Shown here: piece after piece, positions 14,378-18,482 of the stretch | Layout of the letters: every line of letters starts with the position of its first letter | Position numbering within the stretch: the stretch's first letter is position 1 | Assembly (NCBI GenBank): GCA_025451775.1 | Contig: JANWJU010000093.1 | Span: 1 to 32,420 of the forward strand | Direction: 5' to 3' | Source: Terriglobales bacterium | GTDB taxonomy: Bacteria > Acidobacteriota > Terriglobia > Terriglobales > SCQP01 | DNA length: 32,420 nucleotides | Made by a program: the position numbers and the translations under genes | Notes under the pieces: generated by a model | What the model was told of the DNA's origin: nothing | What the model saw: the letters and a program-made list of their open reading frames with translations, nothing else | Databases searched by the model: none

Positions 14378-15358
14378 GTGAGCCTGCCTTTTCCGTATCC
14401 CGGCCGGATGTATGGCGTTGGCGGACGCAGGCTGCACGTTGATTTTCACCCCGGTCCTGCCGGGGCGCCCACGGGGGCGCCGACGGTCGTGTTCGAGGCG
14501 GCGTTGGGCGCCTCGTCGCTGGGATGGATGTTCGTCGAGCGGCAGGTGCGGGCGTTCGCGGCCACCGTCGCCTATGACCGTGCCGGTTTGGGGTGGAGCG
14601 AGCCGGGACCGCGGACCCAGGATCTGCCGGCGGCGGTGGCGGAGCTGGAAGGCGTGCTGCAAGCGGCGGCGCCATCCGGGCCGCTGGTGCTGGTGGGGCA
14701 CTCCTATGGGGCGTTGATCGTCCGCTATTATGTGGCGCTGCATCCGGAGCGGGTGGCGGGGTTGGTGCTGGTGGATCCGCCGGGGCTGGAGGAGTGGGCG
14801 CATCCGGACGCTGCGCATGTGGCCAAGCTGGAAACCGGTATCCGGCTGGCGCGGCGAGGGGGATGGGCGGCGCGGTGCGGGGCGGCAAGGTTCGTCGCGT
14901 GGCTGATCGGGATTGGGGCCTTGGAGTTGGCGGCACGGTGCGCAGTGGTGGTCAGCGGCGGCAAACTCAGAGAGCCGAGCGACTTCAACTTCACCCCCGC
15001 CATGCTGTTGCCGCCCGACGCCAAGCCCATCATGCGCTGGTTCTGGACGCGGCCCTGCTTTTACGACGCGCTGGTCAGCCAGATGGAGGCGCTGCCGGAG
15101 GCGGCGCGGCTGGTGGCGCAGGCGCCGCCCTTGGCAGAGATGCCGCTGGCCGTGCTCTCGGCCGCCGACACGCCGCCGGTGCAGGCCGCCGAGCATGAAC
15201 GCGCCGCCCGCCAATCGCGCCGCGGACAGCACTTGGCCGCCCGCGCCAGCGGCCACTGGATTCCGATCGAGGAGCCGGAGACGGTCATTGCGGCGGTGCG
15301 CTCCCTGGTGGCGCAGGCGGTGGAAATGCGGTATGATGGCTCCAAGTCAGCCTTATGA
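14378..15358 (+). CDS. Alpha/beta hydrolase
   Basis: A 326-residue alpha/beta-hydrolase fold protein. The nucleophile elbow is GHSYGA (Ser109 from the GTG start), preceded by [10 protein letters not shown] (oxyanion/strand 4 region). The catalytic His is in [12 protein letters not shown] (His293), and an Asp in the segment VLSAADTPP is the likely acid. The substrate is unknown; related proteins are esterases or lipases. GTG 14378 keeps the segment before [11 protein letters not shown] that is common in relatives; ATG 14408 is an alternative. Its stop codon overlaps the start of the polycysteine ORF (ATGA), although their functions are probably unrelated. Confidence 0.85.
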
Positions 15359-15435
15359 TCACCCCGAGTCTCAACTGTTGTTGTTGCTGCTGTCGCCCGG
15401 CGTGTACGCGCGGCGCCGGCGCCTGCTCGGTTTGA
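15355..15435 (+). CDS. Polycysteine leader peptide (candidate cysteine attenuator)
   Basis: A 26-codon [23 protein letters not shown], then AGACSV and a stop. Eight of 26 residues are Cys and six are consecutive (15376-15393, using both TGT and TGC). It starts in an ATGA overlap with the hydrolase stop and ends 117 bases before the sulfite/nitrite reductase. A TATGAT box at 15332-15337 would place a transcript start about ten bases before the ATG. A run of codons for the pathway's end product directly upstream of biosynthetic genes is the hallmark of translational attenuation, and polycysteine leaders upstream of sulfur genes are known in mycobacteria. The peptide is probably regulatory only. 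Chance cannot be fully excluded without conservation data. Confidence 0.8.
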
Positions 15436-15436
15436 T

Positions 15437-15482
15437 CTGATTCGCTGTCTCCCGCCTTTAGTATTTTCCGACAGAGCATCAG
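15437..15482 (+). promoter_or_regulatory. Stem-loop just after the polycysteine ORF
   Basis: CTGAT (15437-15441) pairs with ATCAG (15478-15482) and CTGTC (15445-15449) with GACAG (15470-15474), separated by a small internal loop and closing a 20-base apical loop. The stem begins two bases after the leader stop, where a ribosome stalled on the Cys codons versus one at the stop would leave different RNA free to fold. A second weaker pairing, ACCGA 15484-15488 with TCGGT 15509-15513, follows. Confidence 0.55.
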
Positions 15483-15525
15483 AACCGAGAAGCCGCCGCC
15501 GACTTTGATCGGTCCGGTGAGGTAT

Positions 15526-15549
15526 TACTTTTAAGCTCTACTTTTAAGC
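15526..15549 (+). repeat. Direct repeat TACTTTTAAGC before the reductase start
   Basis: The 11-mer occurs at 15526-15536 and 15539-15549, immediately before ATG 15553. It takes the place where a ribosome-binding site would be expected; none is visible. It may be a promoter or protein-binding element or a small duplication. Confidence 0.5.
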
Positions 15550-15552
15550 CCT

Positions 15553-17241
15553 ATGACCCAGCCACCTGTAGCCGAGACTCTCATTCAGCGCCACGAGCGC
15601 ATCAAGCGCGAGCAGAACCCGTGGGAGGAGCTGCCGCGGCTGTTCACGGCGTTTCGCAGCGGCATCGGCGCGATCGGCAGGGCCGACATTGGGACCCGGT
15701 TGCGTTGGTGGGGGCTGTACACGCAGGGCGATGGGGAAGGCGCCTTTGGCGGCGCCGCCCCGTATTTCATGATGCGCGTGCGCATCCCCAACGGGTTGCT
15801 GACCGCCGCCCAGCTCTCCACCGTGGCCGGCATCTCGCGGCGCTGGGGGCGCGGACTCGCCGACGTCACCGTGCGGCAGAATATCCAGTTGCACTGGATC
15901 GACTCCGAAAATATCCCCGACATCTTTCACACCCTCTGGGAGGCGGGCCTGACCACGCAGTCGGCGTGCGGTGACGATCCCCGCAACCTCACCGGCTGCC
16001 CGCTGGCGGGATTCGATCCGACCGAGTACGTGGATGCCAGCCCGCTGACCACGGCCACCAACAAGATGCTGCTGGCCGGCAGCGACTTTTATAACCTGCC
16101 GCGCAAGTACAAGGTGTGCATCGTCGGCTGCCGGCAATGGTGCCCCAACCCGGAGATCAACGATGTGGCGTTTACCGCCTTTCCGCGCGCCGCGGGCGAC
16201 GAGGGGCCGGTGTGGTTCGGTTTGCGCATCGGCGGCGGGTTGTCGAACACGCCGTTTTTGGCGGTGCCGATGCCGGTCAAAGTGGCCTGGGATGAGGTGG
16301 TGCCGGTGACGCGCGCCATCACCGAGCTGTTCCGCGACAGCCAGGAGTTGCGGCAGAACCGGGGCCATGCGCGCTTGAAGTTTCTCTTCATCCGGCATAA
16401 ATGGACGGCGGAGAAGTTTTTGGCGGAGACCGAGCGCCGGCTGGGGTATGAGCTGCATCGTTCCGAGCCCGACCCGCCGCCGCCGCCGGTGTTCCGCGAC
16501 CACTTGGGCGTGCACCAGCAGAAGCAGCCGGGTTTGTACTACGTGGGGCTGAGCGTGCTGCGGGGCCGGGTCAACGCCGATCAGCTTGATGCGGTGGCGG
16601 AGGCGGCGGCGCGGTGGGGCGGTGGGGAAGTCCGGACCACGGCGCAGCAGGGCATCGTCATTCCTCATGTTCCGGAGGCCAACGTCGAGGCGTTGGTGGC
16701 GCACTTGGGACGGCACGAACTTCCGGTGGACGCCAGCACCTTCCGGCGCGGCGTGATGAGCTGCACCGGCCGGGAGTTCTGCAAGCTGGCGGTGGTGGAG
16801 ACCAAGGCGTTTGCCAGCACGCTGGTGAACGAGTTGGAGCGGCGGATGCCGGATTTTCCGCTGCCGCTGAGCATCAACTTGAACGGCTGCCCCAACTCCT
16901 GCGGCCAGCACTGGACCGCCGACGTCGGATTGCAGGGTTCGCGGGTGAAGACGCCCGAGGGCACCGCCGATGGCTTTGACGTCTACCTGGGCGGCGGCTT
17001 GGGCGCGGGGGCGCGGCTGTCGAAGAAAACCCTGGGGCGGGTGCTGGCGACGGAGTTGCCCGATCGGCTGGAATCGCTGTTCCGGCACTTCCAGGCGCAG
17101 CGGCTCGAGGGGGAGATCTTCCGCGATTTTGTAGAACGTCAGGGCACGGCCGAACTCGAGAAGGTGCTGGGCACGCTGCCGGCGGCGGAGATGCCCGTCC
17201 GCGGGCACGACGACTTTGTGCCCATAGGCGAGATCGTTTAG
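15553..17241 (+). CDS. sir: Siroheme [4Fe-4S] assimilatory sulfite/nitrite reductase
   Basis: A 562-residue, ferredoxin-type NirA/Sir family enzyme. It performs six-electron reduction of sulfite to sulfide (or nitrite to ammonia). The cluster and siroheme cysteines are Cys404 and Cys410 (CTGREFC) and Cys446 and Cys450 (NGCPNSC). Two NIR_SIR ferredoxin-like half domains (about 60-135 and 325-390) each precede a catalytic domain. GLYTQ and NLTGCPLAG contain the Tyr and Cys that are cross-linked in the mycobacterial sulfite-reducing enzyme; whether the link forms here is inference. The upstream polycysteine leader and the downstream siroheme-synthesis gene favour sulfite as substrate. The stop is five bases before the next ATG. 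Confidence 0.92.
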   Translation: MTQPPVAETLIQRHERIKREQNPWEELPRLFTAFRSGIGAIGRADIGTRLRWWGLYTQGDGEGAFGGAAPYFMMRVRIPNGLLTAAQLSTVAGISRRWGRGLADVTVRQNIQLHWIDSENIPDIFHTLWEAGLTTQSACGDDPRNLTGCPLAGFDPTEYVDASPLTTATNKMLLAGSDFYNLPRKYKVCIVGCRQWCPNPEINDVAFTAFPRAAGDEGPVWFGLRIGGGLSNTPFLAVPMPVKVAWDEVVPVTRAITELFRDSQELRQNRGHARLKFLFIRHKWTAEKFLAETERRLGYELHRSEPDPPPPPVFRDHLGVHQQKQPGLYYVGLSVLRGRVNADQLDAVAEAAARWGGGEVRTTAQQGIVIPHVPEANVEALVAHLGRHELPVDASTFRRGVMSCTGREFCKLAVVETKAFASTLVNELERRMPDFPLPLSINLNGCPNSCGQHWTADVGLQGSRVKTPEGTADGFDVYLGGGLGAGARLSKKTLGRVLATELPDRLESLFRHFQAQRLEGEIFRDFVERQGTAELEKVLGTLPAAEMPVRGHDDFVPIGEIV

Positions 17242-17246
17242 GGGCC

Positions 17247-18482
17247 ATGGTCTACTTGGTGGGCGCCGGACCCGGCGATCCGGAACTGCTCACGCTTAAG
17301 GGAAAGCGCGTGCTGGGGCAGGCCGACGCCGTGCTCTATGACGAGTTGGCGAACCCGGCGCTGCTCGATTGGGCGCCAGCGCGGGCGGAACGCTGCTACG
17401 TGGGCAAACGCGCCCGCCATCACGCCCTGCCGCAAGCCGAAATTGCCGCCTGGATGATCGAGCGCGCCCAGCGCGGGTTGTGCGTGGTGCGGCTGAAAGG
17501 CGGCGATCCGCTCATCTTCGGACGGGGCGGGGAAGAGATCGAGGCGCTGGCACGGGCGGGGGTGGCGTGGGAGGTGGTGCCGGGGGTGAGTGCGGGCACG
17601 GGCGTGGCCGCGGCGGCCGGGATTCCGCTGACGCACCGGGGGCTGAGTTCGGGGGTGCGGTTTTTGGCCGGACACACCGGGTTGGCGGCGGCGGCCCTGA
17701 ATCCCAACGGCGAGACGCTGGTGGTCTTCATGGGGCTGGAGCGGCTGGCGGAGAGCGCCACGGCACTCATCGCCCGGGGCTGGCCGCGCACCACTCCCGC
17801 CACGGTCATCGAGCGCGGGACGCTGCCGGGCGAACGCATGGTCACGGCCACGCTGGCCGGCATCGCCGCCAAAGTGCGGCGGGCCGCCATGCAGTCCCCG
17901 GCGCTGGTGATCGTGGGTGCGGTGGCGGGACTGCCGGCGCGCTGGCGGCGGAGCGGGGCGCGGAGTTCGCCGGCGACGACGACCGCGCTGCCCGGTCTGA
18001 TTTTAATGGCGCATGGCTCACCGCTGCCGGGCTGGCAGACGGGCGTGGATCAACTGGCGCGGTCGCTGGCGGCGCCCGGACAGTTCAGCCGCGCCGCCTA
18101 CCTGCCCCCGGTGCGCCCCAGTCTGAGCGAGGTAGTGGGGGCCGCAGCCGCGGCGGGCGTGCGGCGGCTGGCGGTGGTGCCGTATTTTTTAGCGCCGGGC
18201 CTGCACGTGACCCGCGACTTGCCGGAGTTGGTCGCGGCGGAGCGGCAGAGGCATCCCGGAATCGAGATGGCGCTGGCGCCGTGCTTGGAAGGGCATCCGG
18301 CGCTGCGCACGGCGGTGCTGGCGCGAGCAGGGGAGGCTGCGCTAAGCTGGAGCCATGAGGCCAAAATCGGCGGCACAATGGGCACGCTGGGCCGCAGCGG
18401 GCGTTCTGCTGGCGGCGGTGACGCTGCTCGCCGGGGCGCAACAAGCCGGGACACAAAAGAGGTCCGAAAAAAATCCCGTTAG
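17247..18482 (+). CDS. Uroporphyrinogen-III C-methyltransferase fused to sirohydrochlorin chelatase (SUMT-CbiX)
   Basis: A 411-residue fusion. The SUMT part (about 1-235) begins VYLVGAGPGDPELLTLKG, with VVRLKGGDPLIFGRGGEE, VPGVSAGTG, IPLTHRG and FMGL motifs; it makes precorrin-2 using SAM. The C-terminal CbiX/SirB-like part (about 250-365) has MAHGSPLPGW (His256) and PYFLAPGLHVTRDLPEL (His320), the metal-binding histidines for Fe2+ insertion. The intermediate dehydrogenase is not encoded here. It follows the reductase by five bases and would provide its siroheme. The last 45 or so residues are Gly/Arg/Ser-rich, unlike any chelatase, and overlap the next gene by 128 bases. A TAA in the next frame at 18343 suggests that an indel extended the protein. 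Confidence 0.9.
   Translation: MVYLVGAGPGDPELLTLKGKRVLGQADAVLYDELANPALLDWAPARAERCYVGKRARHHALPQAEIAAWMIERAQRGLCVVRLKGGDPLIFGRGGEEIEALARAGVAWEVVPGVSAGTGVAAAAGIPLTHRGLSSGVRFLAGHTGLAAAALNPNGETLVVFMGLERLAESATALIARGWPRTTPATVIERGTLPGERMVTATLAGIAAKVRRAAMQSPALVIVGAVAGLPARWRRSGARSSPATTTALPGLILMAHGSPLPGWQTGVDQLARSLAAPGQFSRAAYLPPVRPSLSEVVGAAAAAGVRRLAVVPYFLAPGLHVTRDLPELVAAERQRHPGIEMALAPCLEGHPALRTAVLARAGEAALSWSHEAKIGGTMGTLGRSGRSAGGGDAARRGATSRDTKEVRKKSR

Follow-up and report, generated by a model that had tools for sequence, protein, structure and literature searches.

The leader and its operon

The window (the whole stretch of DNA analyzed here, 32,420 nucleotides from a Terriglobales bacterium) carries a gene for a siroheme-dependent sulfite/nitrite reductase, followed by a gene for siroheme supply and preceded by a short Cys-rich ORF that overlaps an upstream hydrolase gene. 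The features considered below are as follows, with positions counted along the window.

14378 to 15358, plus strand: alpha/beta hydrolase gene, upstream of the leader (Pfam Abhydrolase_1, 6e-18)
15332 to 15337, plus strand: candidate -10 box TATGAT, from sequence; weak, with the -35 match absent
15355 to 15435, plus strand: leader ORF of 26 codons with ATG start, TGA stop, and 8 Cys; a Cys-rich ORF is kept in relatives
15376 to 15393, plus strand: run of six Cys codons (TGT TGT TGT TGC TGC TGT), the proposed sensor, UGU-enriched like other leaders
15410 to 15441, plus strand: region 2, 5' arm of an antiterminator-type hairpin (GCGGCGCCGGCG..CTCGGTTTGATCTGAT)
15437 to 15482, plus strand: stem-loop of an earlier note on this DNA, apex of the 2:3 hairpin (from folding)
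15478 to 15501, plus strand: region 3, 3' arm that pairs with region 2 (ATCAGAACCGAGAAGCCGCCGCCG)
15484 to 15523, plus strand: weak terminator-like hairpin, region 3:4 (-12.9 kcal/mol)
15524 to 15533, plus strand: poor T-rich tract after the 3:4 hairpin (ATTACTTTTA)
15553 to 17241, plus strand: siroheme-dependent sulfite/nitrite reductase, the controlled gene (NIR_SIR, 9.4e-48; NIR_SIR_ferr)
17247 to 18482, plus strand: fusion of SUMT (uroporphyrinogen-III methyltransferase) and CbiX, for siroheme supply (TP_methylase, 1.4e-52; CbiX, 2.2e-20)

Domain matches agree with the earlier note, which had called the downstream genes a siroheme sulfite/nitrite reductase and a SUMT-CbiX fusion. The fusion scored above the cut-off of TIGR01469, and the reductase reached the cut-off of no NCBIfam equivalog. 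The 26-codon ORF was also present as described there, with six consecutive and eight total Cys codons. Its ATG overlaps the TGA stop of the hydrolase gene (15356-15358) as ATGA, and another member of the genus (G003, locus L008) has the same arrangement between its leader and an orthologous hydrolase (58% identity).

From the TATGAT box, transcription is predicted to start at about 15344, leaving a 5' untranslated region of ca. 10 nt without a Shine-Dalgarno sequence, so the box is compatible with a 5' end near this position; G003 also has a TATGAT near its leader start. The candidate is weak because a recognizable -35 match is absent. A consensus promoter and terminator scan of the window returned nothing at the leader and, over 20 kb, no excess relative to shuffled sequences. 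The Rfam covariance models (T-box, SAM riboswitches, etc.) matched only a tRNA in the window and nothing in the leader, and NCBIfam has no model for these leaders.

By direct reading of the sequence, there is no Shine-Dalgarno close to the reductase ATG of the window. Directly 5' of this ATG (15526-15551) lies a 13-base tandem duplication, TACTTTTAAGCTC/TACTTTTAAGCCC, in the place that a Shine-Dalgarno often occupies in relatives; the duplication could have been inserted recently or could be an artefact of assembly.

Conservation of the Cys-rich ORF upstream of the reductase

We collected reductase orthologues from relatives, from the rest of the phylum, and from named genomes, which provided 93 nonidentical upstream regions within the order Acidobacteriales. 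A Cys-dense ORF was defined as a short ORF with an ATG start and at least three Cys within eight codons. The expectation of the earlier note, that a Cys-run ORF is kept upstream of orthologues while its flanks vary, was borne out, since such an ORF appeared in 81 of the 93 regions (87%), with the rest of the leader variable, although these counts are not independent because the sequences are related. Under stricter definitions, the same regions gave 61% (at least four Cys) and 30% (at least five), versus 4.6%, 0.34%, and 0.02% in shuffled regions and 2.2%, 0, and 0 on the antisense strand for at least three, four, and five Cys, respectively. None of 26 outgroup reductase loci, which included Rokubacteria, Leptospirillum and other Nitrospirae, Armatimonadota, and other acidobacterial classes, had one. 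In the window itself, at least six Cys within eight codons in any ORF starting with ATG, GTG, or TTG were never obtained in 5,000 dinucleotide-preserving shuffles of the upstream region, and, judged by these comparisons, its Cys run is not due to chance.

The leader peptides are ca. 11 to 32 residues long (for example, MSDSCNLRALCCCTCCCCACVCAGAGRLLT, MASDRAPAFCTCCMCCCDRVCCRLCPAS from Edaphobacter modestus [L090], and MQTAKNSCCCPVCCCV) and, beyond the Cys cluster and some local groups, are unrelated in sequence. In relatives, other residues often break up the Cys cluster (CRCC, CPCC). The median distance between leader stop and reductase gene is 97 nt.

Codon usage also sets these ORFs apart from the genes that they precede. 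TGT accounts for 63% of leader Cys codons (289/458) versus 7.7% (68/879) of those in the accompanying reductase genes; in the window, the leader has five TGT among eight Cys codons and the reductase and SUMT-CbiX genes none among 12. The enrichment in the rare UGU would fit a sensor based on stalling, and escape from the G+C-rich coding bias may contribute too.

Predicted promoters and start sites of the leaders

A sigma70-type promoter (TTGAC-like -35 and TAnnnT -10) was found 5' of the leader ORF in 54 of 82 leaders, versus 3% of shuffled sequences. In 39 of these 54 promoter-bearing leaders, the start codon is located 6 to 7 nt past the -10 box, and therefore transcription should begin at or beside the start codon. 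Shine-Dalgarno-like 4-mers precede only 7 of 82 leaders but 49 of 82 reductase genes. Going by these predicted start sites, the leaders of the order are probably leaderless. The window departs from this spacing, with its ATG 17 nt past TATGAT and overlapping the hydrolase stop.

The promoter geometry bears on which frame is used. The run could be a TGY repeat that arose by chance or could encode a poly-Leu leader in a different frame; in the window, an ORF in the +2 frame that ends at 15440 does contain LLLLLL, as would be true of any TGY repeat. However, the start codon beside the promoter of the relatives opens the Cys frame, the Cys clusters are often interrupted and lie upstream of sulfur genes, and neither shuffles nor the antisense strand yields such ORFs. 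We rejected the poly-Leu leader on these grounds and regard this explanation, chance repeat included, as extremely improbable.

Terminators and proposed alternative pairings

Between the leader stop and the gene, a hairpin followed by a T tract was detected in 77 of 84 leaders (the weak hairpin of the window is counted among the 77), versus 90 of 840 shuffled sequences (10.7%). In most relatives, the switch is best read as an intrinsic terminator, nearer to the gene than the stem-loop beside the leader stop, and the window appears to show one weakly. A canonical terminator is absent in all three readable leaders of the window's genus (G000, which is the window's own genome, G003, and G004), and the consensus terminator scan did not pick up the hairpin at 15484-15523.

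When 12 leaders were aligned, pairing in the terminator helix reached 96.5%, and both partners had changed at 5 of 12 pairs; 0 of 500 shuffles gave this result. Just past the Cys run of this group, TCTGGCG is complementary to CGCCAGA in the 5' arm of the terminator and would act as an antiterminator. The pairing is 90% kept in this best-aligned group, and its covariation does not exceed that of shuffles because it is nearly invariant. A second, Edaphobacter-like group appears to use CTTTGC:GCAAAG as its alternative pairing; its members retain both the leader block CTTTGCCTG and the GCAAAG that precedes the terminator. Not all leaders show antiterminator complementarity to the terminator arm (mean z, -0.58), with ca. 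21% of 77 leaders at p ≤ 5% and the window at 4%.

When L113 and L118 are compared with L023 and L027, the CTTTGCCTG block is seen to be read in two frames, as RLCL in L023 and as LFA-stop in L113. Its being kept as nucleotides but read in different frames points to selection on the RNA over the peptide. This is relevant to whether the ORF encodes a functional Cys-rich small protein, for metal or redox binding, with regulation secondary. The ORF is conserved, and Cys-rich peptides can bind metals, but at ca. 11 to 32 residues the peptides share only the Cys cluster, the two readings of the block are what selection on RNA predicts, and rare UGU codons together with terminators fit a sensor. A small metal-binding protein was rejected on these grounds, and we consider a functional protein very unlikely.

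Another alternative is that the leader mainly boosts expression through ribosome reinitiation or coupling, as a sort of antenna, with no cysteine sensing. This model would suit the two genomes in which the leader start and the hydrolase stop overlap as ATGA, and such a role has been proposed for leader genes located 10 to 11 bp from their gene (PMC4833913). The median of ca. 97 nt between leader stop and gene is far past that distance, and the model leaves the Cys clusters and the terminators unexplained; it was rejected on these grounds, and we find it highly improbable.

As for the window, the stem-loop that the earlier note had placed within two bases of the leader stop does exist, beginning 2 nt past the stop with CTGAT (15437-15441) and ATCAG (15478-15482) paired around CTGTC (15445-15449) and GACAG (15470-15474), but it forms the apex of a longer hairpin that extends back into the leader ORF, where 15410-15441 pairs with 15478-15501. 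The best reading makes this stem-loop the tip of a hairpin of the antiterminator type. G003 and G004 can form a long counterpart of the 2:3 hairpin as well, using different sequence. The whole window leader folds no better than shuffles (z, -0.83), and therefore the structure argument rests on comparison.

Equilibrium folding of the window with the ribosome footprint masked gave a terminator probability of 0.07 to 0.17 with the ribosome stalled versus 0.49 with the ribosome at the stop. As a test across relatives, this approach was discarded as mostly nondiscriminating because their terminators are too stable, only the co-transcriptional version being informative. In the latter, the 5' arm of the window's terminator, before its partner is made, was paired at 0.80 in the stalled state versus 0.31 at the stop. 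The stalled-state pairing of the window was matched by 3 of 20 shuffles, and across loci it was modestly above that of shuffled leaders (0.67 versus 0.62); part of the difference between stall and stop arises because an upstream ribosome leaves more RNA free.

Given the weak terminator of the window, translational control or another output is possible there. The sensor in this genus could be the same and its output translational or Rho-dependent, the hairpins governing access to the reductase start or the exposure of untranslated RNA. The three genus leaders without a canonical terminator are consistent with this, as is G004, in which a C-rich segment past the leader stop can pair with a purine-rich, Shine-Dalgarno-like segment before the gene; moreover, mycobacterial Cys leaders are without conserved terminators (PMC1262725) and act by translation attenuation (PMC13236596). 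Against it, the window gene has no Shine-Dalgarno near its ATG to sequester, the cysD leader in the window's own genome is followed by a perfect intrinsic terminator (see below), and a weak hairpin with a T-rich tail does exist in the window. Sequestration of the ribosome-binding site through Shine-Dalgarno pairing was a possibility only in G004, most relatives having terminators instead. We view a translational or Rho-dependent output in this genus as quite possible, while leaning slightly against it.

Leaders at other sulfur operons

Loci of cysD, found through PF01507, had a Cys-dense ORF upstream in 26 of 30 cases, the window's genome among them, versus 1 of 30 for the control gene gyrB. 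In this genome (L151, contig C131 of G000), a second Cys leader, MSLNPLMPVSCRCRACACCQSAEGCDLG, is followed by a perfect intrinsic terminator, CCCGCCGCCGG...CCGGCGGCGGGTTTTTT, just before cysD, so that this one genome has several cysteine operons with their own leaders. For cysK, 6 of 30 loci had a Cys-dense ORF, a minority of them convincing (L191, L214, L217), and none of 23 cysE-like genes had one. Together, these sequences suggest that several sulfur operons each carry a putative cysteine sensor of their own.

In other acidobacterial families, most cysD loci are without a Cys-dense ORF, any such ORF being present in 8 of 36. Cys leaders were seen upstream of cysD outside the order at L285, L288, L290, L292, and L294 (e.g., MCACCCCCPETSRGLGARRLAA), which suggests a wider or repeated origin. 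The putative short Cys leaders of cysK at L214, L217, and L191 read MFASLERRCPSCRC, MTASIEPRRCPSCRC, and MSLTPSWCQLRCTMCA, respectively. A search of the window's own genome for a 4-Cys pattern returned mainly scattered TGCTGC runs.

A probable cysteine-responsive attenuator

The conserved Cys ORF, the terminator, the rare UGU codons, the promoter geometry of the relatives, and the second leader at cysD are all documented by comparison of sequences, and with them the leader is very probably a cysteine-responsive, ribosome-mediated attenuator, the architecture that the earlier note had recognized and that gains from the conservation of the ORF and from the cysD leader of the same genome. The sensor part of the leader is well supported. 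For most relatives, we conclude from the predicted terminators that the output would be transcription termination.

A ribosome would translate the short leader ORF. With Cys-tRNA plentiful, it would clear the Cys run, reach the stop, and cover region 2, leaving region 3 free so that the downstream off-structure could form; in most relatives, this would be the clear intrinsic terminator just before the gene. With Cys-tRNA scarce, the ribosome would stall at the Cys codons, region 2 would pair with region 3, and the off-structure would come too late, allowing expression of the reductase-siroheme operon. We infer the stalling itself, the sequence of folding events, the dependence on cysteine, and, for the window, the exact form of the off-structure. 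The window's genus is atypical, with no canonical terminator, and the window is without leaderless spacing, its leader starting on the hydrolase stop (ATGA).

More broadly, Acidobacteriota may have a cysteine regulon without a dedicated regulator, in which each sulfur-assimilation operon would carry a leaderless, UGU-rich Cys leader coupled to an intrinsic terminator; this system would be separate from the mycobacterial one. In the window's genus, it would have been rewired: translational coupling through ATGA from the hydrolase would feed the sensor ORF, and another output would have taken the place of the terminator. We put this forward tentatively, with doubt somewhat outweighing confidence.

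Relation to known attenuators

Cys leaders without terminators were first predicted by Seliverstov et al. in 2005, in mycobacteria and others (PMC1262725), and a 2015 study reported conserved Cys-rich upstream ORFs (uORFs) in mycobacteria (PMC4633059). According to later accounts (PMC9031893, PMC13236596, PMC9094748), Canestrari et al. demonstrated leaderless polycysteine attenuators in M. smegmatis in 2020 (doi 10.1111/mmi.14498), and these are described as translational. Like these, the acidobacterial leaders are short Cys-run ORFs before sulfur-assimilation operons, one leader per operon, and in most relatives they appear leaderless from their predicted starts. They differ in belonging to another phylum and in their intrinsic terminators (77/84, versus none conserved in mycobacteria [PMC1262725]); the mycobacterial output is translation attenuation in the account of PMC13236596, whereas most acidobacterial relatives show terminators. 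The window, unlike the mycobacterial leaders, is also without leaderless spacing.

The earlier note held this architecture to be little described outside Actinobacteria. Our literature search, with subscription papers mostly beyond its reach, found no report of acidobacterial Cys leaders, and a 2010 genome-wide attenuator screen had assigned an associated function to almost no predicted attenuator of Acidobacteria (PMC2965389). However, a 2021 study had predicted a Cys uORF with a terminator upstream of cysS in Rhodobacterales (uORFC-8-2, PMC8632094). The likeness lies in a short uORF with Cys codons, the intrinsic terminator after it, and the proposal of attenuation. In that study, uORFC-8-2 has two tandem Cys codons at positions 14 and 15, occurs only before cysS in alphaproteobacteria, and is a prediction alone; the window falls outside it, its downstream gene being a sulfite/nitrite reductase and not cysS.

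With the classical attenuators (trpL, hisL, ilvL, and others), the leaders share sensor codons and, in the proposed mechanism, the logic of antiterminator and terminator, as a short ORF rich in codons for the end product lies upstream of a biosynthetic operon, and across the order an intrinsic terminator stands between leader and gene (77/84). Unlike trpL, hisL, and ilvL, they would sense cysteine, and most appear to start leaderless, without a Shine-Dalgarno; the window's terminator is weak.

If the attenuator is real, ribosome-based cysteine sensing extends from mycobacteria to a dominant soil phylum, which would explain how sulfate assimilation is tuned in Acidobacteriota and would offer a natural comparison of two outputs, termination and translation, behind one sensor. 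Cultured relatives make the proposal testable, the leader being present in Edaphobacter modestus (L090), Terracidiphilus gabretensis (L091), and Granulicella rosea (L093).

One MAG record among the loci, titled Opitutia bacterium fen_1432 (L089), has a reductase and a Cys leader (MQGCPCCRCCTLLRARR) typical of Acidobacteriota and is probably mislabelled or mis-binned.
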